The notes under the pieces were generated by a model. That model had not been told where the DNA came from. It saw nothing but the letters and a program-made list of their open reading frames with translations, and ran no database searches. Both the position numbers and the translations under genes were made by a program. DNA of 22,489 nucleotides from a virus, in IMG/VR virus record IMGVR_UViG_3300042006_000256, positions 1 through 22,489 of that record; one strand, written 5' to 3'. Positions 1,361 to 22,489 of this stretch are shown in pieces. Numbering within the stretch: the stretch's first letter is position 1; each line of letters starts with the position of its first letter.

Positions 1361-1783
1361 TCAGGCAACCTTCACAGAGGCTTTCAGCTGAGCCAGGGCG
1401 CTCTCGGCGTGATCTATCTCACGCAGAATCCGGGCGCGCTCGACCTGATCAACTCGCCCATCAGCCATCGCCGCATGCGTCTCGACGGTAACTTCTGCAA
1501 ACTCCAGCGTTGCGCGCCCCAGTGCGTCATGAATGTCGATAGCCATAGGCTGGTCGGTCTTAATGATCGAATAACCGAACTCGCCAGCCAGCGCCGCCAA
1601 TGGACGCATGTCCTCGGTATGCAGCAGCAGGGAGTACAGGTGCTTTACGTTGAACCAGGCGCCGTCGTAATTCGCGTTGGCGCGCTGGAGCAGGCTCACC
1701 GGCGGCATGCTCATCAACGTTGCGAGATTCTTGGTGTTCGCCTCTTCGACGGAGGTATCACAAGCCCTCAGAAAATCCTGCAT
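1361..1783 (-). CDS. CII-like phage regulatory protein
   Basis: A 140-residue protein starting MQDFLRACDTS. The ATG at 1783 was chosen because GAGG lies eight bases upstream, while the longer frame from 1837 has no clear ribosome site. The N-terminal half (LATLMSMPPVSLLQRANANY) looks like a helix-turn-helix followed by a short strand region. The C-terminal half is helical and charged. Length, layout and position directly after cro match the phage regulatory CII family common in Pseudomonas prophages. Family role: transcription activator or regulator of the lysis-lysogeny choice. I inferred membership from overall look and position, with no single diagnostic motif. It ends 70 bases before the antirepressor start, with a hairpin between. 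Confidence 0.6.
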   Translation of the reverse strand: MQDFLRACDTSVEEANTKNLATLMSMPPVSLLQRANANYDGAWFNVKHLYSLLLHTEDMRPLAALAGEFGYSIIKTDQPMAIDIHDALGRATLEFAEVTVETHAAMADGRVDQVERARILREIDHAESALAQLKASVKVA

Positions 1784-1865
1784 ACCTAAAACCTCGAAAT
1801 TCTTTACGTGGCGCCCTGCAGGTGCAGAGGCGATCATTTACTCAATGGAACGGCGGACAGGGATG

Positions 1866-2078
1866 TCATGCGGCGGATCGGGATCCCTTCTGGGGCATGC
1901 ACAGCTCACGCGCAGTGATCTTTCCACCGGTCAACTCTTCAGCCTTGAAAGCTTTTTCTGCACGCATCGGGTGAATCCCGGCGACCCAGTACGAAACTGC
2001 TGCTTGGGATACGTCGAGCGCTGAAGCGGTTTTGGTTTGCCCGCCGAAGAAGTCGACGAGCCTTTCGATAGGGGTCAT
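1866..2078 (-). CDS. cro: Cro-like repressor (YdaS/P22-Cro type)
   Basis: A 70-residue protein whose residues 14-34 (QTKTASALDVSQAAVSYWVAG) form a helix-turn-helix with recognition helix SQAAVSYW. Size and fold match the small Cro/YdaS repressors. The ATG at 2078 has a strong AGGAGGG site at 2086-2092, seven bases upstream. It is the first gene of the leftward early operon and diverges from cI across three operators, the classical position of cro. Expected role: repress cI and its own promoter during lytic growth. The overall helical layout fits P22 Cro better than lambda Cro. Confidence 0.85.
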   Translation of the reverse strand: MTPIERLVDFFGGQTKTASALDVSQAAVSYWVAGIHPMRAEKAFKAEELTGGKITARELCMPQKGSRSAA

Positions 2079-2093: not shown

Positions 2094-2154
2094 ATAAGCC
2101 TGCTTATATCGTAGGTAGAAGCAGGCTTATTTGCAAGCCAATAAGGAAACTTAT
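2094..2154. promoter_or_regulatory. Three-operator immunity region between cro and cI
   Basis: Three 14-bp sites are centred 23 and 24 bases apart: ATAAGCCTGCTTAT (2094-2107, perfect dyad), AGAAGCAGGCTTAT (2117-2130, one outer mismatch) and ATAAGGAAACTTAT (2141-2154, weaker core). Three evenly spaced operators between divergent repressor genes match lambda OR. The first covers the start of the cro transcript, the second lies in the cro promoter spacer, and the third is next to the cI start. The same motif returns at 7817-7855. Confidence 0.85.
2108..2136 (-). promoter_or_regulatory. PR-like promoter for cro operon
   Basis: On the minus strand, TTGCAA (2136-2131) and TACGAT (2113-2108) are separated by 17 bases, a good sigma70 promoter. 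Transcription should start near 2101, about 23 bases before the cro ATG. The middle operator fills the spacer and the first operator covers the start point, so repressor binding would block it. Confidence 0.75.
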
Positions 2155-2157
2155 AAA
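2152..2157 (+). promoter_or_regulatory. Candidate -10 of the cI maintenance promoter
   Basis: TATAAA at 2152-2157 lies just upstream of the cI ATG codons at 2161 and 2167. No good -35 sits at normal spacing (TTGCAA at 2131 is only 15 bases away), as expected for a promoter helped by bound repressor. A start near 2163 would leave almost no leader, as for the leaderless lambda cI message from PRM. Confidence 0.45.
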
Positions 2158-2166
2158 TTCATGTGC

Positions 2167-2829
2167 ATGAGCACACTTGCAGAACGACTAAAAGAAGCGC
2201 GGAAACACGCGAAACTGACCCAGGCAAAACTGGCGACGGTTTCCGGTGTTGAGCAGCCCCTGATCTCCCAGCTGGAGACAGGCAAGAACCTTCAAAGCGC
2301 ACACCTTCCAAAATTCGCCCACATATGCGGCGTGAGTGCTATTTGGCTGTCGGACGATATTGGGCCCATGGTCATTGACTCAAAAAAGGAAGAGTCGAAC
2401 GTATCGCTGGCTGCCCAGAATCCTCAGAGCTTCCGCTATCCAGTGATCAGCTGGGTTTCCGCCGGATCTTGGGCCGAGGCCGTAGAGCCCTACCCTGTTG
2501 GTATATCGGATCGCTACGAGTTTTCCGAATACAACTCGAAAGGCCCGGCGTTCTGGCTGACAGTTAAAGGCGACTCGATGACAGCGCCCGCCGGCCAGAG
2601 CATCACTGAAGGTACTCTGATCCTAGTGGACACTGAGGCCGAAGTCGCCCCAGGCAAGCTGGTGGTAGCCAAGCTGCCAGACAGCAACGAAGCGACGTTC
2701 AAGAAGCTGGTCAGCGATGGCGGCCGGCTGTTCCTGAAACCGCTGAACCCGAGCTACCCAATCGAGGCCGTCGACGAGAACTGCCGGATCGTGGGCGTGG
2801 TGGTCCAGGCGCTGCAGAAGTTTTACTGA
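2167..2829 (+). CDS. cI: CI-type phage repressor (HTH + S24 self-cleaving peptidase)
   Basis: A 220-residue protein. Residues about 5-60 form an XRE-type helix-turn-helix (LTQAKLATVSGVEQPLISQLETGK). Residues 92-220 form a LexA/S24 peptidase domain. The probable cleavage bond is Ala99-Gly100 in VSAGSW, the nucleophile Ser137 in VKGDSM, and the general base Lys169 in VVAKLP. It should therefore self-cleave when RecA is activated, releasing the prophage. The ATG at 2167 gives the normal N-terminus MSTLAERLKEAR. ATG 2161 is in frame and possible. The in-frame TTG at 2131 falls inside the operators and was rejected. It probably binds the ATAAGC dyads at 2094-2154 and 7817-7855. Confidence 0.92.
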   Translation: MSTLAERLKEARKHAKLTQAKLATVSGVEQPLISQLETGKNLQSAHLPKFAHICGVSAIWLSDDIGPMVIDSKKEESNVSLAAQNPQSFRYPVISWVSAGSWAEAVEPYPVGISDRYEFSEYNSKGPAFWLTVKGDSMTAPAGQSITEGTLILVDTEAEVAPGKLVVAKLPDSNEATFKKLVSDGGRLFLKPLNPSYPIEAVDENCRIVGVVVQALQKFY

Positions 2830-3219: not shown

Positions 3220-4350
3220 ATGGACACGCTAAACATTTCGCCAGCCCTGCTAGATTGGGCCGCCAGCCAGATTGGCAAGTCCCTTGAGGATCTTGCTTCT
3301 CTGGTCGTGTCCGGAAAAGGAATTGATAGGTTTGTGGTTGGAGAGCTCACTGTTCGCCAGCTAGAAAAGGTTGCCAAAGTCACCCATACCCCCTTTGGCT
3401 ACCTGCTGCTCGACACGCCTCCAAGCATTGCCAAGCCACGACTACCCGACATGAGACAAGTCGTTTCTCCCGATCCTTTGGGTCCGGACTTCTTCGAGGT
3501 TCTAGACGACGTAATTGCGAAACAGAACTGGTATCTTGATTATCTACATGATATCGGTGCAGACCCGCTGCCTTTTATTGGTAAATACAGCACTTCTGAT
3601 GACCCCTGCTTAGTGGCAAAGCACATCACGGAAACTGCAGGTATTGACTTCGCTTTAAAAAAATCTTGCGCAAACCAATCCGAGTACTTCCGAGCGTTAT
3701 CTGAAAGTTTTGAATCCATTGGAATACTTGTCTTTAAAAACAGTATTGTGAAGAGCAACTCTAGGCGGGGGCTTTCCGTATCCGAGTTCCGTGGGTTTGC
3801 CATATGTGATGAGTACGCACCCGCGGTGTTCATTAATGGTAAAGATGCTGAAGCGGCATGGATTTTTACCTTAGCTCATGAAGTTGCTCACCTCTGGATA
3901 GGTGAGAGCGGGGTTTCTGACATACCCTCTCCAAAAGATTTCAGGCCTGGAAAAAATGTCGAGTCTTTTTGCAATAGCGTCGCAGCAGAAATGCTCGTCC
4001 CAAAAGATGAGTTCCTCTCTCTATGGGCTGGAAGCGAAATTGAGGCTATTGACCGTGCAAGCAGACACTTCAAGGTCAGCAAGCTAGTCGTAGGACGTCG
4101 CGCGTTTGAGCTAGGTAAGATTTCTAGGTCCGCTTACTCCCAGCTTTACGCATTGAGCTACAAGTCCGGCGGTTCTGGAGGAAATCCATATGCAACCATT
4201 CCGGTTAGAAATAGCAAAAAGGTTACCAATGCGTTAGTCAAAAGCGCCATGGAGGGAAGCATTTTGATTCGTGACGCCGCAAGGCTTCTGAACATTACGC
4301 CAGACACAGTCACGAACCTTTACAAGAAGAACATTCGCGCCTATGCATAA
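3220..4350 (+). CDS. HTH-ImmA/IrrE metallopeptidase (antitoxin-like)
   Basis: A 376-residue protein. Residues about 5-65 are a helix-turn-helix-like N-terminus. Residues about 150-270 are an ImmA/IrrE zinc peptidase with HEVAH at 220-224 as the zinc site and the FCNSVAAEMLVP block at 250-261, whose Glu257 is the likely third ligand. Residues about 330-376 (VKSAMEGSILIRDAARLLNIT) look like a second helix-turn-helix. In the known pairing, such proteins partner a DUF4411 PIN-like protein as antitoxin and regulator, and the next gene is exactly that, overlapping by eight bases. The A+T content is higher than in the flanking phage genes, suggesting later acquisition. Expressed on the same strand as cI, so probably active in the lysogen. 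Confidence 0.85.
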   Translation: MDTLNISPALLDWAASQIGKSLEDLASLVVSGKGIDRFVVGELTVRQLEKVAKVTHTPFGYLLLDTPPSIAKPRLPDMRQVVSPDPLGPDFFEVLDDVIAKQNWYLDYLHDIGADPLPFIGKYSTSDDPCLVAKHITETAGIDFALKKSCANQSEYFRALSESFESIGILVFKNSIVKSNSRRGLSVSEFRGFAICDEYAPAVFINGKDAEAAWIFTLAHEVAHLWIGESGVSDIPSPKDFRPGKNVESFCNSVAAEMLVPKDEFLSLWAGSEIEAIDRASRHFKVSKLVVGRRAFELGKISRSAYSQLYALSYKSGGSGGNPYATIPVRNSKKVTNALVKSAMEGSILIRDAARLLNITPDTVTNLYKKNIRAYA

Positions 4351-4870
4351 GTATCTAGTTGACTCGAACATATTCTTGCAAGCGAAGAACTTTCACTACC
4401 GGTTCGAGTTTTGCAGTCACTTTTGGAGCTGGATAAAGCAAGCCCATAATGACGGGATGCTCTGCTCCATACAGAAAGTAAAAAAAGAGCTGAGCCGCGG
4501 ACAGGATGGTGATCCTGTTAAAGAATGGTTGAATGAGTTGCCTGAAAGCTTTTTCCTACCTGACGATACCGATGCGAAGGTGATATTAAGATACAGGGAG
4601 GTTATGCAATGGACAGCCAGCAGCACACACTTCAAAGACGCTGCAAAAAAAGAATTTGCAAGAAGCGATATAGCAGATGCCTTTTTGATAGCTGTAGCTA
4701 TGGCTTACGGGTATGAAATAATCACCCACGAACTAAGCAACCCGGACCGAAAGAATAAAATTCAGATTCCCGATGCGGCATTGCATTTTGGTATTAAAAC
4801 ACATTTTGTTTATGACGTTCTTAGTGATAACTCAAACAAAGATTTCTGCTTCGCTCGGAAGGCTTTGTAG
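4343..4870 (+). CDS. DUF4411 PIN-like protein (toxin-like)
   Basis: A 175-residue protein opening with KYLVDSNIFLQ, the first acidic residue (Asp7) of a PIN-type nuclease. Glu49 in KKEL and Asp109/Asp112 in RSDIADAFLIAVA follow, and YEIITHE completes the usual DUF4411 pattern. These positions match the metal-binding acids of PIN RNases, so RNA cleavage is the likely activity. It overlaps the HTH-ImmA gene by eight bases and is followed by a terminator, making a closed two-gene unit. It is A+T-rich like its partner. Such pairs are treated as toxin-antitoxin or phage-exclusion modules, but the target RNA is unknown. Confidence 0.8.
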   Translation: MHKYLVDSNIFLQAKNFHYRFEFCSHFWSWIKQAHNDGMLCSIQKVKKELSRGQDGDPVKEWLNELPESFFLPDDTDAKVILRYREVMQWTASSTHFKDAAKKEFARSDIADAFLIAVAMAYGYEIITHELSNPDRKNKIQIPDAALHFGIKTHFVYDVLSDNSNKDFCFARKAL

Positions 4871-7518: not shown

Positions 7519-7770
7519 ATGCCCACCCCAGCATTTACCACTTCGAAACCGTCCTCGTCATACGAAGCGGCAGGCCGCCGCCTCCAAGCACTGATCGCCG
7601 CGCCAGTTGTTCAAAAGGTACAGGCGGTCACAGTGGTGAGGCTGGATCACGAATCACCAGAGGACTGGCAGCGCCTCCTGGACGAGATCGGCGAGACCTC
7701 TGGCGTCCGGGTCGAGATCCTGGAGGGCGGCACCGCCAGGATCGGTTGGCGAGAGTACTGCGACGCATAA
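7519..7770 (+). CDS. DUF1654 family protein, LexA-controlled
   Basis: An 83-residue protein. The ATG at 7519 has AAGGAG eight bases upstream, and the frame upstream of it crosses the promoter. Residues 14-80 match DUF1654: SYEAAGRRLQALIAAPVVQK, the HESPEDWQRLLDEI block, and a final GGTARIGWREY. This family is known mainly from Pseudomonas and its phages, and its function is unknown. The overlapping LexA-like box implies induction by DNA damage together with prophage release. A strong terminator follows, so the gene is transcribed alone. Confidence 0.85.
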   Translation: MPTPAFTTSKPSSSYEAAGRRLQALIAAPVVQKVQAVTVVRLDHESPEDWQRLLDEIGETSGVRVEILEGGTARIGWREYCDA

Positions 7771-7816: not shown

Positions 7817-7858
7817 ATAAGCAGGCTTATTGACGAATAAAATAAGTGTGCTTATATT
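7817..7858 (+). promoter_or_regulatory. PL-like early promoter with two CI/Cro operators
   Basis: TTGACG (7830-7835) and TATATT (7853-7858) are exactly 17 bases apart, a strong sigma70 promoter starting near 7865. ATAAGCAGGCTTAT (7817-7830) meets the -35 and ATAAGTGTGCTTAT (7842-7855) covers the -10. The centres are 25 bases apart. The first is a perfect dyad of the class found between cro and cI. CI should therefore silence this rightward operon in the lysogen. Confidence 0.88.
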
Positions 7859-7864
7859 CACTCC

Positions 7865-8197
7865 ATCGAGTCACCCAACAGGGACTCGCCAGGGCCCAGG
7901 GCCTGACCCGCTCTTTAACAATCAGCGCCATAAACGATTACCCGGCTCTCGCTGGGAGGTCAGCCCCGGCTATCACCTGTGGGGCGAGAGGAAGTCAGGT
8001 GAACAAAACGCGCTGCCACTACTGGTGACCGGCGACAGACAGGCCCGAAAGCCTGCCAACGATGGGATACCCCATACGGCTGTCGAGGTGTTAACCGAAC
8101 TGGCGAATGACCTGGTAAGCGGCGCGGGAAACACCCCCAGATTTCCTCGATGACCTTGGCGACAGGGTCATCCGGGAAATCAACGGAGGGTAGGACG
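7865..8197 (+). promoter_or_regulatory. Long structured leader RNA with boxA (antitermination leader)
   Basis: No convincing gene lies in these 333 bases. From the start point the RNA offers CGAGTC (7867-7872) with GACTCG (7883-7888). Next is CGCTCTTTAACAATC (7909-7923), a near-exact boxA as in rRNA and nut sites. Then CTCTCGC (7946-7952) pairs with GCGAGAG (7984-7990), enclosing AGGT/ACCT. A three-way junction follows: CGACAG (8033-8038) with CTGTCG (8080-8085) encloses CAGGC/GCCTG (8040-8055) and ATGGG/CCCAT (8062-8075). Last, GATGACC (8149-8155) pairs with GGTCATC (8166-8172). BoxA recruits NusB/NusE. The role in antitermination of the early operon is inferred, either with an N-like protein or as a protein-free put-like RNA. 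Confidence 0.7.
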
Positions 8198-8395
8198 ATG
8201 AATAAGGTTCTTCACATCACCGGCCGCGGCGAGCTGCAAGTCTTTGCTGACGAGAGCCTGGCCGCCTGCATCGCCGAGGCAAACCGGCTCAATACCGAGC
8301 ATCGCTACACCAGCGGCGTGCGTGTCGTTGAGTGCGAAGACGGCCATCGACTGACGGCGGCGGATTGCAAGTCCTGCTCAGATATTCCCGTCTAG
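8198..8395 (+). CDS. Small hypothetical protein, first gene of the PL operon
   Basis: A 65-residue protein. The ATG at 8198 follows GGAGGG (8186-8191) and lies 25 bases after the last leader hairpin. It has a compact alpha/beta look (VLHITGRGELQVFADESLAA, then RVVECEDGHRLTAADCKSC) with three cysteines near the C-terminus. There is no arginine-rich N-terminus, so it is not an obvious lambda N. Its position behind a boxA leader nonetheless makes it the candidate partner if antitermination needs a protein. No family was recognised. The last 18 bases overlap the convergent lipoprotein gene. Confidence 0.65.
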   Translation: MNKVLHITGRGELQVFADESLAACIAEANRLNTEHRYTSGVRVVECEDGHRLTAADCKSCSDIPV

Positions 8396-8755
8396 GGAGT
8401 AGATAAAAGGGGCAGTGATCGTAATTGGGCCGTCTTTCATTAAATCGGCTGGTGGTTTCGGCAGTGGTTGGGCGCGACGGATTAATTCTAAAGTGGCCGC
8501 GTCCAAGTCCACATTGCCTGAACTTTGTACCAGCTCATAAGAAACGACATTTCCGTCGCCATCTATCGTAAAGCGCAGTTGGTTTGTCCCTTCAATCCCA
8601 GACAATTGCGAGGCGATCGGGTAATTCTTGAATTTATTCAAATGCGCCACGAGCCCGGCGCTCAGTGTCTTTTCTTGTTCGGCAGTGGAGGAGCAACCAG
8701 AGATTACGCCGAGAAAAACAAAGGCAAAAATAGTGGTTAGAAAAAATCTGGACAT
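8378..8755 (-). CDS. TonB C-terminal-like lipoprotein
   Basis: A 125-residue protein. The N-terminus is a lipoprotein signal with lipobox VISG-Cys21. Residues about 60-125 look like a TonB C-terminal domain: LRFTIDGDGNVVSYELVQSS, then LDAATLELIRRAQPLPKPP, the usual TonB/TolA-type fold. Full TonB has an N-terminal membrane anchor and Pro-rich spacer, and both are missing, so it is a short lipid-anchored relative in the periplasm. It could interfere with TonB-dependent receptor function, but this is only inference. It runs against the PL operon and has its own extended -10 (TGATAGGCT, minus strand 8813-8805), so it can be expressed in the lysogen. Confidence 0.75.
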   Translation of the reverse strand: MSRFFLTTIFAFVFLGVISGCSSTAEQEKTLSAGLVAHLNKFKNYPIASQLSGIEGTNQLRFTIDGDGNVVSYELVQSSGNVDLDAATLELIRRAQPLPKPPADLMKDGPITITAPFIYSLDGNI

Positions 8756-13672: not shown

Positions 13673-13942
13673 CTAAAGCACCATTACCCGGCCAACTATT
13701 TCACGGCCTCTGGCAAAAGCGGCGCTCTCCGCCTCGTTCATATCTCTGTACTGCTCTTGAAGCAATTCACGTGTCCCATTGACCTCTGAGCCAGACTCAA
13801 AAATCGCGAGTTTGGCCACATAGTGGGTCATTGAGCAGTTAGTGTCCTGGCGATTTGTCTTCACTGGACCGAACACTTCAACTCTTATCTCGTGATTGAG
13901 GTAATCCTCGTAGTTGGTGCGCAGGGTTGGCTCGATAGACAT
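13673..13942 (-). CDS. Hypothetical protein, minus-strand cassette
   Basis: An 89-residue protein, MSIEPTLRTNYEDYL onward. The ATG at 13942 was chosen because GAGAG lies just upstream and the longer frame runs into the ribosome site of the divergent gene at 14052. It has a beta-rich centre (HEIRVEVFGPVKTN) and a helical tail (EQYRDMNEAESAAFARGREI). No family was recognised. It faces the operon and is probably an accessory gene with its own expression. Confidence 0.65.
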   Translation of the reverse strand: MSIEPTLRTNYEDYLNHEIRVEVFGPVKTNRQDTNCSMTHYVAKLAIFESGSEVNGTRELLQEQYRDMNEAESAAFARGREIVGRVMVL

Positions 13943-14051
13943 AACAGCTCTCACAAAAATGCCGGCCGGATGCAGGCCCCTTGTAATACCCCAACCAAAA
14001 CCAAATTGCCACCACCGGTCACGGAGGGCGGCGCCTGACTGGAGATAATCC

Positions 14052-14684
14052 ATGGACGACCAGTTCTACCTGCAAGACAGCCGCAGCCAGGCCTACGTCG
14101 GCGACGGGTTATCGTTCTGGGGCTTTGGCGGATCTGGTTATGTCACTGATCTGGCCAAGGCCCAAGTGTTCACCCGGGACGGCGCTTGCGATCACCGCGA
14201 CACTGACATCCCCTGGCCCAAAGCCTATGTCGACGCCAGGGCGCGAGTCGGTGTCGATTGCCAGAATGTCACCTTGAGCGAGGCGCTGGACCAACACCCC
14301 GACGCAGCCGAGTTTTACGTCCAGAAGCCGCAATGCTGGAACGGCAACAACCTGATTTGGCTTTGTGAAGACGGAGTATTCACAAGCGATCTGTCGAAGG
14401 CAGCCGTGGTGCCGAGGGCTCACACCGTCACCTGGATCGGCAAGCTCGGTCAATCAGGTGCAGTGGTCTGGCCCAGGCCGTACATCGACGCGCATAGCCG
14501 CCGGTTGGTCGAACGCGACGACGTGAACATCAAGGAGGCTCTACGGGGAACCGGCATCAAGCTGCCCAAGCCGAAAAAACCCAAAATGATGATGTTCAAT
14601 TGTGAAGGCTGCGGCCGGTTCATCAGCGACGCCCAGCGCTATCGGGAAGACTGTCGGAACTGTGGAACAAGCAACACACCTTAA
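14052..14684 (+). CDS. Internally duplicated protein with C-terminal zinc ribbon
   Basis: A 210-residue protein. Residues about 5-80 and 88-165 are two copies of one module: FYLQDSRSQAYVGDGLSFWG matches FYVQ..CWNGNNLIWLCED, then YVTDLAKAQVF matches FTSDLSKAAVV, then WPKAYVDARARV matches WPRPYIDAHSRRLV. After a basic linker (KLPKPKKPK), Cys184, Cys187, Cys201 and Cys204 form a zinc ribbon. The module is unknown to me; the zinc ribbon may bind DNA or a protein. The ATG at 14052 follows GGAG by five bases. It lies between two minus-strand genes. Confidence 0.72.
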   Translation: MDDQFYLQDSRSQAYVGDGLSFWGFGGSGYVTDLAKAQVFTRDGACDHRDTDIPWPKAYVDARARVGVDCQNVTLSEALDQHPDAAEFYVQKPQCWNGNNLIWLCEDGVFTSDLSKAAVVPRAHTVTWIGKLGQSGAVVWPRPYIDAHSRRLVERDDVNIKEALRGTGIKLPKPKKPKMMMFNCEGCGRFISDAQRYREDCRNCGTSNTP

Positions 14685-14690
14685 GGAGCG

Positions 14691-14903
14691 TTACCGTGCT
14701 GGCTTAATGCTGCCTTGCTGAGCGAATTGTTCAAACTCGGCGAGCATGATAACCGCCGTGAACTGCAGATCCCTGTACTGAGCGGCTATCTCGTCAGTCT
14801 GGAACGGCCAGTATTTATCGTAGAAATCTTCCGCAGCCGCCTCAGCTTCCTCCTTTGCGATTTGAAGCTCATGAAGGCCTGCTTCGTAGTTGTAATTACG
14901 CAT
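14691..14903 (-). CDS. Small helical hypothetical protein
   Basis: A 70-residue protein with an aromatic N-terminus (MRNYNYEAGLHELQIAKEE) and a long acidic helix. The ribosome site AAGGAGG lies five bases before the ATG at 14903 and is the best on the minus strand here, which makes the gene credible despite its size. No family was recognised. It pairs with the minus-strand gene at 15012-15242, 108 bases upstream, and may be co-transcribed with it. Confidence 0.7.
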   Translation of the reverse strand: MRNYNYEAGLHELQIAKEEAEAAAEDFYDKYWPFQTDEIAAQYRDLQFTAVIMLAEFEQFAQQGSIKPAR

Positions 14904-15011
14904 ACATACCTCCTTGATCCGGCTCCATGCCGGTCACCCGTAATACCCCATATCGAGGTTCAACACCAATTTATCGGTGCCTTCAAAGACGTACAGGAGC
15001 ACGGCTGCCGC

Positions 15012-15242
15012 TCAAGACCAGATGGCCGTCTCTGTATTGATCTCTGCGACAGAGGTGGCGTTGAACTGCCGCTGACGGTGCAAATCATCCCGCATCTTCG
15101 AGAACTCAAATTTCTTTGTTTCGAGCTCCTTAAGGACGAGACTTGAGATTCGGTACGTACCGCAGTCAGAGCAATCCACAAGCTGTTCGCCTTGACCTTC
15201 TCCTGACTCCTTCGCCTCCATCCCGCAAAGATAGCAATTCAT
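15012..15242 (-). CDS. Small zinc-ribbon protein
   Basis: A 76-residue protein. Cys3, Cys6, Cys24 and Cys27 (MNCYLCGMEA, then LVDCSDCGTYRIS) form a zinc ribbon at the N-terminus. The rest is helical (LVLKELETKKFEFSKMRDDL). The ATG at 15242 has AGGAGG upstream. Similar ribbons occur at the ends of small phage and restriction-linked proteins, but no function can be assigned. It may form a two-gene minus-strand unit with 14691-14903. Confidence 0.7.
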   Translation of the reverse strand: MNCYLCGMEAKESGEGQGEQLVDCSDCGTYRISSLVLKELETKKFEFSKMRDDLHRQRQFNATSVAEINTETAIWS

Positions 15243-15352
15243 ATCTGACCTCCTATTCGTTGATCCATAGGAGAGCACCGCCCAACGACAGAAGTTTCCA
15301 TTACTTAACGCAATCCACTCTTCTGTAACACGCCAGCTGGCGAGGATCCCCT

Positions 15353-16144
15353 ATGTCCGCACAACGACCCCGAATCGTTTGCCAGTTCAGCTGCGGCGCC
15401 GCCTCGGCTGTGGCCACAAAGATGGCCCTGGCACAATACGGCGCCACGCACGACGTGCAGATCATCAATGCTTTTCTGGCAAACGAGCATGAAGATAACC
15501 GGCGGTTCTTGCTGGACTGCCAGGAGTGGTTCGGTCAGGGAATTGCGCAACTGCGTGACGAGAAATACGGCGCAGACATCATTCAGGTTTTCCGGCGCGA
15601 GCGTTTCATGAAAGGGCGCAATGGTGCGCCATGCACAAAGCTGTTGAAACGGCGGTTGCTCGACGCATGGAAGAACCCTGGCGACGTGATGGTGTTTGGT
15701 TACACGATGGAAGAAGTAGACCGCCTGGAAGACTTCCGAGACCGAAACCCTGATCGCCCTGTTATTGCCCCGCTGATTGACGCGGGCCTGGGCAAAGAGG
15801 ATTGCAAGGCGATGATCCAGCGCGCTGGGATCGAGTTGCCGCTGATGTACCGCCTGGGCTACGACAACGCCAACTGCATCGGCTGCGTGAAAGGTGGCGA
15901 AGGCTACTTTCGAGCGATCCGCGAGGACTTTCCGGAGCAATTTGAAGAGCTTTGCCGTGTCCAGGACGAACTTGGCTCAGGCTCGTACCTGCATCGCGAC
16001 CGTAAGACCAATATCCGTTTCTCTCTACGTGACCTTTCGCCTGGTAAACCCCGACGAAACGAGGCGTTACCAGCTTGCTCTTTTTTTTGCGAGATGGCTG
16101 AAGCCGACTATCAACCGAGCGCTGCGGAAATAGCGTCGGGCTAA
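15353..16144 (+). CDS. PAPS-reductase/adenine-nucleotide alpha-hydrolase family protein
   Basis: A 263-residue protein. The N-terminal PP-loop lies at residues 11-20 as QFSCGAASAV; the classical SGGKDS is altered to SCGAAS, as in a phage-encoded subgroup. Cysteines fall as Cys94 (APCTKLLKRR), Cys175/Cys178 (CIGC) and Cys242/Cys246 (CSFFC), compatible with an Fe-S cluster or zinc site of the kind found in CysH/DndC relatives. The ATG at 15353 has GAGGA upstream. The family activates substrates with ATP or PAPS; a sulfur or base-modification role in phage DNA is possible but inferred. Its stop codon overlaps the stop of the convergent HNH nuclease gene. Confidence 0.8.
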   Translation: MSAQRPRIVCQFSCGAASAVATKMALAQYGATHDVQIINAFLANEHEDNRRFLLDCQEWFGQGIAQLRDEKYGADIIQVFRRERFMKGRNGAPCTKLLKRRLLDAWKNPGDVMVFGYTMEEVDRLEDFRDRNPDRPVIAPLIDAGLGKEDCKAMIQRAGIELPLMYRLGYDNANCIGCVKGGEGYFRAIREDFPEQFEELCRVQDELGSGSYLHRDRKTNIRFSLRDLSPGKPRRNEALPACSFFCEMAEADYQPSAAEIASG

Positions 16145-17577
16145 GTGTTAGCTGGTGTAGGGTGAACAATCTGAGCCTTCAATTTGCGATGCAGAACACG
16201 ATGACAGTTGGCACACAGGCACCGCAATTGGTCTAGGGTTGTCTTGTGCTGCTCGCCCATATCTGCAACCTGGATCGCCTCATGATGAACCTCAATACAA
16301 GCCACACCAAAATCGCCATACGCTTCGACAGGATCTGTTCCGCACTCCTCGCAAAAAAGCCGGCCATGCCTCTTGATAAATGAAGCCTTCTTGGCTCTAG
16401 ATAGACCCGGTGAGCGTTCACGTTTCAGGTGATACACCAGCTTGACTTGGCCCTCGGCCCACTCCCTATCTTCAGTGTCATTGGGTATTTCGAGCACCTC
16501 GACTTGCTCGCCTTTCGGGACTATTTTATAACCCGCGGCTTCCAGCAGTTCGAAACAAACAGTTCCCTTCCCCGCGGTGAAGTGGCGAGACTTGAGAGTG
16601 AACCCTAGAGCGGCTGTTGCGGCAAGTCCAAACACCTGCTTCGGTGCCAGTCGCTTCCCTTCATCAACCAACAAATCATAATCAATCGACGGCCCAAACT
16701 CCTCCGAGGTCAGGCCCTGAAGCAAGCTTTGCACTGCCTCCCAAATATACTCAGGGGTTACACTGCGTAATTGCTCTGCAGGTAAACGGCGGTGATCCTC
16801 CCCTGGCCCATTCACTTGTGACGAAGCTGTAACCCGAATTGTTGTCAACGCTTTCAAATCGCGATCCGCTACCAGACCCAGAATCACTCCACCTAGCGCT
16901 GGAGAAATACTTGCGAGGTAACATCCCTGATTTCCATCGCCATTTTTCTGTAATGGGGAATGCTTCTCTGGAAGAAGGTCCAACAAGGCATCTAAGTGTA
17001 ATTTTGGAGAAATTGGATGATCCAGCCTGGCCCACATGATCGGCACCATCCAGCCAAGAGCTTGCCAGTATTCAGCAGCCTGCCAATGACTGTCGGGGAT
17101 AGGCTCTTCGCGATGTGCATCCGAAGCAACGCCTACTGCCTTTATTAGCCCATCCGCATACGAAATTACTACATCACCGGGACTCACGAGAGTGAGGTTC
17201 AGATACGTCTGGTTGGTCGCACCATTACGCTTTTCTTTTGGAGACCAAATGTATCCGCCAGCATACTCATTTAGATGAGTTTGCTTGTGATTAACCCACC
17301 AGTAGCGCCGCATGGGCTTTGCTAAGCGATTTGAGGCTCGGTGAAAAACTGCGGTTTCATTTGCCCTGTTAACGGAAACACATTCCCAACCAGCAGCGAT
17401 CCATAAGTGAGCCCACGTGTGGCTATCCTCCGTACGCGAGTTCGCCCACCAAGCATCATGATTCCGTGCACTGGGCGGCAGGCCATTGACTAGCGCATCG
17501 ATCTGACCGAATGCCAGTTGGACAGAGTCCTGCGCCTGGGCTTTCAGAAAGTCTGCTAAGGGCGCGTATTTACTCAC
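16141..17577 (-). CDS. HNH nuclease with DUF7662-like and EVE-like domains (probable type IV restriction)
   Basis: A 478-residue protein. Residues 1-80 resemble DUF7662 (PLADFLKAQAQDSVQLAFGQ, then LPPSARNHDAWWAN). Residues 91-155 look like an EVE/PUA-type domain (RYWWVNHKQTHLNEYAGGYI, then VSPGDVVISYADG), which can hold a flipped modified base. The C-terminus is an HNH nuclease: Cys409/Cys412, His431-His432, Cys455/Cys458 and His463 (VHHEAIQ, then CANCHRVLH). Reader plus HNH is the plan of modification-dependent restriction enzymes, so defence against other phages is likely. The GTG start at 17577 follows AGGAGG by six bases. It is on the minus strand, separate from the operon. Confidence 0.82.
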   Translation of the reverse strand: MSKYAPLADFLKAQAQDSVQLAFGQIDALVNGLPPSARNHDAWWANSRTEDSHTWAHLWIAAGWECVSVNRANETAVFHRASNRLAKPMRRYWWVNHKQTHLNEYAGGYIWSPKEKRNGATNQTYLNLTLVSPGDVVISYADGLIKAVGVASDAHREEPIPDSHWQAAEYWQALGWMVPIMWARLDHPISPKLHLDALLDLLPEKHSPLQKNGDGNQGCYLASISPALGGVILGLVADRDLKALTTIRVTASSQVNGPGEDHRRLPAEQLRSVTPEYIWEAVQSLLQGLTSEEFGPSIDYDLLVDEGKRLAPKQVFGLAATAALGFTLKSRHFTAGKGTVCFELLEAAGYKIVPKGEQVEVLEIPNDTEDREWAEGQVKLVYHLKRERSPGLSRAKKASFIKRHGRLFCEECGTDPVEAYGDFGVACIEVHHEAIQVADMGEQHKTTLDQLRCLCANCHRVLHRKLKAQIVHPTPANT

Positions 17578-17752
17578 TGCTCACCTCCTTGTTTGAGAGT
17601 GGGAGCATATTGACATCACCTACCAACCGCAACAGCGTCAGCCCGTCGCCAATGGCAGCGCTGGCACGCGCCAACGATCCATGGCGCACTGAGCAACGCC
17701 AAGCACGCGCCGCATAACTCCCCCACTCCACCGCCCGGGCATAGCCCGGCAT
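17570..17752 (-). CDS. Possible small gene coupled to the HNH nuclease
   Basis: A 60-codon frame (GYARAVEWGSYAARAWRCSV onward) ending in TAA eight bases inside the HNH gene, so the nuclease ribosome site AGGAGG lies within its last codons. That overlap could couple translation. No ribosome site precedes its ATG, the GC is higher than in the nuclease gene, and no family was recognised. A CCGGGC/GCCCGG stem sits at its start. It could equally be untranslated leader. Confidence 0.35.
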   Translation of the reverse strand: MPGYARAVEWGSYAARAWRCSVRHGSLARASAAIGDGLTLLRLVGDVNMLPLSNKEVSSE

Positions 17753-17825
17753 AGGACATTGTCATGATCATAAGATCGTCCTCCGCAATGCCGTCCTAGC
17801 CGAAGGCGAGATGTTTAATACATCA

Positions 17826-18575
17826 CTAAACTTGAGAAGGACTAATATATTTATACGCCTTGGCGCTGTCCTGATTTCCGTTATTTTCCACCTTTAAAAA
17901 ACCAAATCTTTGAGCGGATCTATTACCATTAATCTTCAAATACGTAAACTTTACAAAAACACTTTCGCTAACACTCAACAAAGCAAAAGGCAAAGTTATG
18001 AACTGAACACCCCTGCCATCCAAGTAACCAAATGAAGTTAACAGTTCGTAGCCTTCATGGCTCTCTTTTTCCAGAATCACCTCGACAGACTCACACTTAG
18101 GTCCGACATTGGAAATCTCAAAGCGAGCATTACGTCCAGGAGAGTAAACAACGTCATAGTATTTCACTCTGATATCTGGCTCTGCTTGGCGTTCGACTTG
18201 CTCACGCTGATGTGCAGACGCCTCCAGATCGGCTTCAAGTTGTCTTCTGGAAACCTCTACCATAGCGGTCTGCTGCTCTACGGAAGCCCTCAACTCATCA
18301 GCCTGCATTTTCAAAGATTCAGAACTTATTCTTAACTCACGCCCCTGCTGGATATATCCCAAAACCAACCACAAAAAGGCAAGGGGCCCGAAAACTCCGG
18401 CGGCCAGGTCACCTATCTCATTTAGTTTGAGAAGTATTAGTTCGTCGAACTTCGCTGCTATGACGAGTAGGGATCCGCCGAAATAGAAAGCTGTGACATG
18501 TGCAGCCCACCACTCTAATTTTCTGCTGCTCCACCACTGAGCTTGCTCTGCCCAATAATTAAAAAAACGCTTCAA
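17826..18575 (-). CDS. Membrane protein with coiled coil
   Basis: About 249 residues. Two membrane segments (VTAFYFGGSLLVIAAKF and VFGPLAFLWLVLGYI) are followed by a long coiled coil (SLKMQADELRASVEQQTAMV, then RRQLEADLEASAHQREQVER) and a beta-rich domain. The frame opens with a TTG at 18614, but that codon lies on a TGCTAGAGT extended -10, so the TTG at 18575, preceded by GAGG, is more likely. The gene is A+T-rich against its neighbours, indicating recent transfer. The layout resembles membrane-anchored sensors or defence proteins. No family was recognised. Confidence 0.68.
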   Translation of the reverse strand: MKRFFNYWAEQAQWWSSRKLEWWAAHVTAFYFGGSLLVIAAKFDELILLKLNEIGDLAAGVFGPLAFLWLVLGYIQQGRELRISSESLKMQADELRASVEQQTAMVEVSRRQLEADLEASAHQREQVERQAEPDIRVKYYDVVYSPGRNARFEISNVGPKCESVEVILEKESHEGYELLTSFGYLDGRGVQFITLPFALLSVSESVFVKFTYLKINGNRSAQRFGFLKVENNGNQDSAKAYKYISPSQV

Positions 18576-18604
18576 GAGCCCATACCTCGCAATATCAAAG
18601 AGCC

Positions 18605-18613
18605 ACTCTAGCA
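18605..18613 (-). promoter_or_regulatory. Extended -10 promoter of the membrane coiled-coil gene
   Basis: TGCTAGAGT on the minus strand. With the following bases it shares 14 identical positions with the promoter at 5850-5863. Transcription would start near 18598. Confidence 0.5.
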
Positions 18614-18674
18614 AATTTATTGACTACTAAACATAAACATCATGGTCAGCCGCTATAGCGGCAAGGACGAAGTC

Positions 18675-21204: not shown

Positions 21205-21549
21205 ATGACAGCAGCAGAACAGCTCAACGACGGTATTACCGGAGATAAGGTGCCCGAGGCGCAGATGGCCGAGCTCCTGGGTACCACCCTAGCGGCCCTG
21301 CGCTCCAAGCGAGCCAGAAACCAAATCCCCCTCGGCGTCTGGAATAAGCACGGCAGCCGCGTTATGTACAGCATTAGGAGATACTACGAATGGCTCGAAA
21401 GCCAATGGGTTTGCCCGCAGGAATGGACCTCCACCACGGATCGATCCGCATCCGCTTTATGTGGAACGGCAGCCGGCGCAGTGAAACGCTCCCCTATCCT
21501 CCGACACCGAAAGGAATCAAGTCTGCCTCACAGGTTGTTGATCAAGTAA
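21205..21549 (+). CDS. xis: Excisionase-like HTH protein
   Basis: A 114-residue protein, start ATG at 21205 after GGGAGG at 21194-21199. Residues 15-66 (VPEAQMAELLGTTLAALRSK, then GVWNKHGSRVMYSIRRYYEWLES) look like the winged-helix/MerR-type fold of phage excisionases. After residue about 67 the frame overlaps the start of the integrase gene in a different frame for 160 bases, so the last 48 residues are probably an unselected tail. Excisionase directs the integrase to excise the prophage. Position immediately before int on the same strand supports this. Confidence 0.65.
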   Translation: MTAAEQLNDGITGDKVPEAQMAELLGTTLAALRSKRARNQIPLGVWNKHGSRVMYSIRRYYEWLESQWVCPQEWTSTTDRSASALCGTAAGAVKRSPILRHRKESSLPHRLLIK

Positions 21550-22489
21550 AAGGGCTGATCAAACTGGGGTTGCTCGACGACGACAAGTACGCCGAGCTTT
21601 TCCCTAGTTCCAACAACGTAGCTGGCGGGAAGATCAACTTCGGCGAGTATGCCCAGCTCTGGCTAGACAGTCGTGAGGTGGTCGCTGGAACGAAGGGAAA
21701 CTACAAGGGCGCGTTGAACCGCTATTGGATGCCCGGCTTGGCCCTGGTGCGGATTGACCTGATCACCACCACCCTGCTTCGCCGGATAATGGCGACGAAC
21801 GAGTGGAAGTCGCCGGGAGTGAAGCGCAACGCCATCTCGAAGCTTTCCACCATCCTGAACTCAGCCGTATCCGAGGAACTGATTCCGAAGAACCCGGCGG
21901 CTATTCTGGAGTTGCCCAAGCGCAGCAAAAAAGAGATCGACCCGTTCACCCTGGAAGAAGCAAATCAGATCATCGCCAAGATGTACGCGCATGATCATTG
22001 GCCCAGCACGATCTATGCGGCATTTTTTGAGTTTGTGTTTTTCACCGGCATGCGTCTATCCGAAGCTCTAGCGATGCGCTGGGATGCGGTAGACGAAGAG
22101 AAGAGGACTGCCCACGTTTGTCGAGGGATCGCTTTGGGGGAAGTGGTGGAGCGGACGAAGACTGGTTCAGACCGTTTCGTGCTGCTGAACGATCGAGCGA
22201 TGCACGCCCTGCAGTTCGCCAGGCACTACGCTAATCGTCGGAAAAGTGGCAAGGGCAAGGTGCTGGAAACGCCTTTCATATTCCCGCCTTCAAAGAACTC
22301 GGAGTACGTGAAACAGACGTCCGACCTGCACAAGCAGTGGATTCCGACTCTGAAGGCTTTGAATATCCGTCGTCGGCCGCCATACAACTGTCGTCACACC
22401 TATGCGACAATATGCATTATGTCTGGCATGAACCCCGCCTTCATCTCCCAGCAGCTCGGCCATAGTGTGCAGATGCTGCTCTCGACTTA
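21390..22489 (+). CDS. int: Tyrosine integrase (cut by window edge)
   Basis: About 366 codons are present from ATG 21390, with AGGAG nine bases upstream. An N-terminal arm-binding region (MDLHHGSIRIRFMWNGSRRS) is followed by a core-binding domain (INFGEYAQLWLDSR). The catalytic domain shows the first Arg in FFTGMRLSEALAMRWD, Lys in ERTKTGSDRF, the Arg-His pair in YNCRHTYAT (Tyr replaces the first His of H-x-x-R) and His in QQLGHSVQMLLST. The window ends in the codon after LLST, beginning TA, which is where the catalytic Tyr is expected in this subfamily. It inserts the phage at attP by strand exchange. attP/attB are beyond the window. Confidence 0.92.
   Translation, partial: MARKPMGLPAGMDLHHGSIRIRFMWNGSRRSETLPYPPTPKGIKSASQVVDQVKGLIKLGLLDDDKYAELFPSSNNVAGGKINFGEYAQLWLDSREVVAGTKGNYKGALNRYWMPGLALVRIDLITTTLLRRIMATNEWKSPGVKRNAISKLSTILNSAVSEELIPKNPAAILELPKRSKKEIDPFTLEEANQIIAKMYAHDHWPSTIYAAFFEFVFFTGMRLSEALAMRWDAVDEEKRTAHVCRGIALGEVVERTKTGSDRFVLLNDRAMHALQFARHYANRRKSGKGKVLETPFIFPPSKNSEYVKQTSDLHKQWIPTLKALNIRRRPPYNCRHTYATICIMSGMNPAFISQQLGHSVQMLLST

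Follow-up and report, generated by a model that had tools for sequence, protein, structure and literature searches.

In rRNA operons and in phage lambda, boxA binds NusB/NusE and nucleates a Rho-resistant elongation complex, and with N this boxA-nucleated complex also resists intrinsic terminators (PMC6614801, PMC5725501). Phage HK022 antiterminates by RNA alone, its put RNA working through the β′ zinc-binding domain (PMC9378689), and put, EAR and canT together provide the precedents for RNA-based antitermination (PMC9378689, PMC11658703). A boxA can also mediate repression, as in the 5′ UTR of E. coli suhB (PMC5725501). An N homologue was sought in P. aeruginosa phage YA3 and none was found (PMC7326022); YA3 is not among the established carriers of the leader described here.

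This leader opens the left operon in the window, by which we mean the whole stretch of 22,489 nt that was analysed, Pseudomonas phage DNA that comprises an immunity region and a left operon. The genes and control sites that matter for the argument are the following.

1361-1837, minus strand: CII-like gene.
1866-2078, minus strand: P22-Cro/YdaS-like regulator.
2131-2829, plus strand: S24 repressor.
7519-7770, plus strand: DUF1654 protein, directly 5′ of PL, the most frequently linked neighbour gene.
7817-7855, plus strand: two repressor operators overlapping PL, 14-bp palindromes ATAAGCAGGCTTAT (7817-7830) and ATAAGTGTGCTTAT (7842-7855).
7830-7858, plus strand: PL promoter, −35 TTGACG and −10 TATATT with a spacing of 17, start site at about 7865.
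8198-8395, plus strand: ORF of 65 amino acids, the first gene of the operon, with no Pfam match.
21390-22487, plus strand: integrase at the distal end of the PL operon, from the ORF list (PF00589, 2e-17), continuing past the window edge.

The initial annotation had described PL as repressor-controlled, and this is supported by the confinement of the palindrome ATAAGCnnGCTTAT to PL, where it has two copies (at 7817 and 7842), and to the cI-cro gap, where exact or near-exact copies stand at 2094, 2117 and 2141; the rest of the window has nothing of similar quality. The operon read from PL is long and lies on the plus strand, with the integrase about 13 kb from the leader, and it includes counter-oriented genes at 8378-8755, 13673-14053, 14691-15278, 16141-17577 and 17826-18614. 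Because such genes (e.g. those at 16141-18614) precede the plus-strand integrase, long untranslated plus-strand RNA would be exposed to Rho. Intrinsic terminator-like sites are not enriched in the operon (8 versus 14.5 expected), so that the target of antitermination would be mainly Rho.

Two further gene sets in the window deserve mention in their own right. Between the repressor and PL (3220-4870), an ImmA/IrrE-type metallopeptidase gene is followed, with an overlap of a few bases, by a DUF4411 gene, and the two look like a toxin-antitoxin-type pair. The counter-oriented gene at 16141-17577 (minus strand) encodes a DUF7662 protein whose C-terminus is weakly HNH-like, and it is possibly a defence cassette of the left operon.

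The initial annotation had treated 7865-8197 as one large structured leader with a near-exact boxA and a three-way junction closed by CGACAG/CTGTCG around two hairpins. The structure itself holds up well, as the 333-nt leader has a folding energy of −139.8 kcal/mol (z = −3.8) and is more stable than 100 of 100 shuffles. The boxA proves to be exact, GCTCTTTAACA at 7910-7920 fitting the gammaproteobacterial consensus GYTCTTTAANA (PMC5725501), and the three-way junction, formed by P3, P4 and P5 at 8033-8085, is supported by covariation. The interval needs to be narrowed: the conserved RNA spans about 7909-8128, boxA leading a folded RNA of about 220 nt, while the hairpin before boxA is variable and 8140-8181 belongs to a separate hairpin family. 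The earlier helix inventory had also missed an H-type pseudoknot at 7963-8002. The elements of the leader, all on the plus strand, are listed below.

7867-7888, plus strand: P0, CGAGTC/GACTCG, hairpin 5′ of boxA, outside the conserved core.
7909-7923, plus strand: boxA CGCTCTTTAACAATC, exact rRNA-type.
7941-7956, plus strand: hairpin CCCGGC/GCTGGG of an optional 5′ module, from sequence and alignment.
7963-8002, plus strand: H-type pseudoknot of the optional 5′ module, stem GCCCC (7963-7967) with GGGGC (7981-7985), loop TCACCTG (7973-7979) with CAGGTGA (7996-8002).
8006-8128, plus strand: core RNA, covariance model R1 (129 positions), from cmsearch (114 bits), covariation and mutual information.
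8009-8015/8120-8126, plus strand: P1 of model R1, which closes the domain.
8022-8025/8029-8032, plus strand: P2 of model R1, supported chiefly by invariant bases.
8033-8038/8080-8085, plus strand: P3 of model R1, CGACAG/CTGTCG.
8040-8044/8051-8055, plus strand: P4 of model R1.
8060-8078, plus strand: P5 of model R1.
8087-8089/8094-8096, plus strand: P6 of model R1, a small hairpin.
8024-8032, plus strand: highly conserved GGYGACCGG of the core junction, at least 95% identity at all positions but one (96 distinct sequences).
8097-8113, plus strand: conserved unpaired GAACYGNGNGAAYGACCC, which closes the junction, at least 95% identity at 8102, 8105-8106 and 8109-8112.
8140-8181, plus strand: P8 hairpin, a repeated element that lies outside the core, directly 5′ of the next ORF's ribosome-binding site.

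We show that the leader is a real and widely conserved structured RNA. Seven helices covary, with changes on both sides in 28 of 36 pairs across 100 model-aligned matches (96 distinct). In this alignment (A2), which was fitted to the structure and therefore leans towards the model, 95% of cells are paired and 314 cells carry both-side changes, where shuffles give 76.5 and slid controls 9-44. An independent MAFFT alignment of 24 sequences has 94% of its cells paired and 16 pairs changed on both sides; the cells with such changes number 84, compared with 24.5 for shuffled sequences and 2-12 for slid controls. Mutual information, calculated with no structure supplied, returns model pairs as its top three and as 12 of its top 20. 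Covariation across homologues, on which the initial annotation had proposed that its idea should stand or fall, is strongly positive, with the pseudoknot included.

The invariant bases cluster in two junction segments, 8024-8032 and 8102-8112. The interior of P3 is swapped for other structures in four loci (L139, L155, L161 and L185), which retain P1 and P6 along with the segments GCGACCGG and GAAYGACC. Several cores (e.g. L036, L137 and L196) and the tails of the phi297 and LESphi3 leaders also contain a small recurring hairpin, GCCCAGTAGGC (GCCCAGCAGGC in LESphi3), inserted within the conserved junction segment or at a point downstream of it.

The core and boxA travel together. When core matches were collected with a covariance model that does not contain boxA, 52 of 60 genomic matches had a strict boxA no more than 230 nt upstream (probability by chance about 0.0005 for each), and the other eight comprise three with a closely related boxA, three degenerate copies and two that are apparently cut down. 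In short-type leaders, boxA is followed by about 30 nt of RNA that is A-rich and unpaired. Of 164 leaders, 105 have a sigma-70-like promoter 5′ of boxA, where 15.5 were expected, and when it is present the distance from −10 to boxA has a median of 49 nt (IQR 46-52). In the annotated phages compared, the leader opens the left operon at a position downstream of the repressor gene, and it is kept behind upstream operator sequences that differ. Each phage record has one strong core match (26 of 26 records); the search for a second copy at PR or elsewhere gave weak scattered matches only, and no other boxA was found on the minus strand near cro.

Several elements around this conserved unit come and go. 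The 5′ module is inserted between boxA and the core in 83 of 195 collected instances, the window among them. The pairing of the pseudoknot loop with its downstream stem reaches at least 6 bp in 48 of 55 distinct sequences, compared with 9% of shuffles, and shows compensatory changes, the main alternative loop/tail pairs being CATCGGT/ACCGATG, TCTCCTGG/CCAGGGGA and TCACCCG/CGGGTGA. A stem of at least 5 bp precedes boxA in 56% of leaders and 30% of shuffles; a conserved boxB-like (rRNA-type) hairpin at this position was considered and rejected, as it is present in part only. Members of the P8 hairpin family (TTTCACTGnTGC...GCAnTGGGAAATCAACCGGAGG) directly precede the first small ORF at its ribosome-binding site, and further copies precede small ORFs deeper in the left operon. 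It was found at many loci (e.g. L072, L159, L320 and L327), with 77 copies within 200 nt of a core, 42 further downstream and two upstream in 1.4 Mb, and it also occurs in P. aeruginosa phages that have no core. Possibly, it is a cassette-boundary or processing element.

Note here two unusual arrangements of the leader. On the minus strand of L374 (about 3609-4100 in reverse-complement positions), a complete leader is followed by an HNH-endonuclease-like ORF and then by the 3′ half of a second leader, as if the ORF had entered at the leader by insertion or recombination. In one Pseudomonas genome (G082), four short contigs (L364-L367) contain a variant leader with the same score and a different 5′ module.

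Homologues of the leader are present in more than 100 Pseudomonas phage and prophage sequences, including dozens of named phages (e.g. LESphi3, phiPSA1, phi2 and BUCT566). BLAST with the window as query matched 16 phage records, two of them via the 3′ hairpin only, and other members used as query added further records, including LESphi3, phiPSA1, PSA-2T, PS-1 and YMC11/07/P54; a search with another member gave 64 matches, many of them confined to P8 or the boxA region. Viral contigs, scanned twice by pattern, yielded at least 127 distinct copies of boxA with the core, though metagenome copies may share ancestry and such counts are therefore not counts of independent events. Model R1 matches 43 of 299 Pseudomonas genomes (about 14%), mostly at one or two loci per genome, and none of the 368 other Gammaproteobacteria sampled, the centre genome apart; the two large genome draws were searched with stricter filters, with weak matches lost. 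The covariance model finds the core in Halopseudomonas and rejects as chance the short-pattern matches in Oceanicoccus, Janthinobacterium, Pelomonas, Burkholderia and Thiobacillus. Plasmids gave no match to the leader. Rfam 15 has no matching family, either at the gathering threshold or with E values as high as 5, and a search of open-access papers found no description of the leader. As far as these two sources show, it is undescribed, in agreement with what the initial annotation had proposed.

What might such an RNA do? A boxA-dependent antiterminator RNA explains the position, the structure, the linkage to boxA and the absence of a shared protein, and we think it probable that the leader is a cis-acting processive antiterminator that depends on boxA and Nus factors and needs no N protein. 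That it binds Nus factors, touches RNA polymerase and brings about read-through is what we infer for it. The boxA of the emerging PL transcript would recruit host NusB and NusE (S10), and thereby the Nus complex; the core would fold behind it, together with the pseudoknot module in some phages; and the invariant junction, GGYGACCGG with GAACYGNGNGAAYGACCC, would hold or complete the complex on RNA polymerase, the role that falls to boxB and N in lambda and to put RNA in HK022. The polymerase so modified would ignore Rho and other terminators over long antisense or untranslated stretches and reach the integrase about 13 kb on. Points against this reading include the single copy, with none at PR, unlike nut and put, the lack of enrichment of intrinsic terminator-like sites in the operon, the frequent presence of DUF1654 beside PL, and the use of boxA for repression, as in suhB.

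The leader could instead combine boxA with a receptor RNA for an N-like phage protein, the core replacing boxB and either DUF1654 or an unrecognised small protein completing the complex. N proteins are small and quick to diverge, and DUF1654 precedes boxA by about 400-550 nt in 62 of 105 loci (a count made with four seed sequences, one of them mis-framed) and is present in 15 of 26 whole records of leader phages. However, this gene is mostly transcribed away from PL and is missing from the whole record in 11 of the 26, including W01, W03, W04 and W05, and we rejected it as an obligatory partner on that account. Its presence in 58-59% of cases indicates a gene that is linked and not required; a protein co-factor in a subset of the phages is possible, and DUF1654 is possibly a rex-like or PL regulator. 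Among proteins encoded in the 1.5 kb downstream of the leader, with families counted by direct matches, the commonest family is present at 43 of 167 loci (26%), and when ten phages were compared whole or nearly so (the window being a fragment), the best protein family was found in seven and none in all ten. A family of 146 loci that had emerged from clustering was discarded as a chain of connected spurious ORFs. The initial annotation had also offered the 65-residue protein encoded next as a ligand of the RNA; this is disfavoured, and we rejected the protein as a conserved partner, as its relatives occur at about 11 of 167 leader loci and tblastn against phage records found none. No N-like gene was found by BLAST, which a divergent, small and fast-evolving protein could escape. 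Considering both sides, we regard dependence on an N-like protein as unlikely.

Less likely again is that the boxA-nucleated Nus complex acts mainly in Rho protection or RNA folding, as in rRNA operons, and that the core does another job, such as mRNA stability, translation start or timing. An rRNA-type boxA at the start of the transcript would fit this, as would the spacer, often with a P8 hairpin as well, that separates the conserved core from the first ORF. However, boxA is tightly linked to the core and the core junction contains invariant bases, which together suggest that the two form one machine. Finally, the size and covariation of the leader, its pseudoknot and the boxA-mediated repression known for suhB (PMC5725501) could point to some other regulatory leader (an attenuator, a riboswitch or the source of a trans-acting small RNA, with boxA perhaps even repressing the operon), but this is very improbable, as 7865-8197 contains no intrinsic terminator-like site, base pairing of the core does not extend to the ribosome-binding site, the leader keeps a fixed distance from PL, and the downstream genes differ from phage to phage, their unrelatedness leaving no common metabolite or target.

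The antiterminator reading may also extend to phages in which the core itself is replaced. CF23a-group P. aeruginosa phages keep the promoter and boxA and have a different RNA after them (17 records match the CF23a leader at least partly), and phi297 has a third type of leader RNA with a degenerate boxA. The two non-core leaders at PL of the CF23a group and phi297 are located at 1525-1770 of L405 and 1150-1500 of L406, and R1 has no meaningful match in leaders of the CF23a or phi297 type. From sequence comparison, several unrelated RNAs behind the same boxA may thus serve one role. We see about even chances that the leader and its homologues represent a new antiterminator RNA class of Pseudomonas phages, in which boxA, for host Nus factors, is joined to a large folded receptor that replaces N altogether, and which is modular, unrelated RNAs standing behind the same boxA in some phages, so that several independent RNA solutions may have evolved there. 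The leader offers a common candidate for early-operon reading in lambda-like Pseudomonas phages such as LESphi3, phiPSA1 and UFJF_PfDIW6, with a secondary structure and invariant bases that are ready for mutation. If the reading is true, it would place a further phage RNA antiterminator beside put, uniting the Nus/boxA and RNA-only routes, and the leader RNA could serve as a tool for expressing long gene clusters in Pseudomonas.

Compared with known systems, the leader shares features with several. Like the rRNA operon leader (boxB-boxA-boxC, with Nus factors, SuhB and S4), it has an exact rRNA-type boxA followed by extensive RNA structure; it differs in being found in phages and prophage-type loci and not upstream of 16S or 23S rRNA, and in that a hairpin before boxA is not universal among the phage leaders. 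The core occurs mostly at one or two loci per Pseudomonas genome and not once per rRNA operon, and so is not an rrn leader. Lambda nutL/N resembles it in having boxA near the PL start site and a long left operon with the integrase last. A lambda nut site was nevertheless rejected, as no boxB hairpin stands directly 3′ of boxA, BLAST found no N-like gene and there is no nutR-like copy; the leader is far larger than a nut site, as the initial annotation had also remarked, and lambda-type sites of boxA and hairpin (L180 and L183) differ from it in appearance. EAR of the B. subtilis eps operon, canT of Tn916 and conAn2 of pLS20 are likewise RNAs that bring about processive antitermination in long operons (PMC11658703); they are Gram-positive systems, to which the leader is likened by its proposed function. 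HK022 put, which the initial annotation had suggested as a model, is apt by analogy only: both are structured RNAs directly after the PL of a temperate phage, with no apparent phage protein and with action expected in cis. A put site as such was rejected, since the fold differs and there is no copy at PR. The put RNA has about 70 nt in two stem-loops, is present at both PL and PR and has no boxA described, whereas the leader consists of boxA and about 120-220 nt, with a multi-branched core of different helices and an optional pseudoknot, in a single copy.
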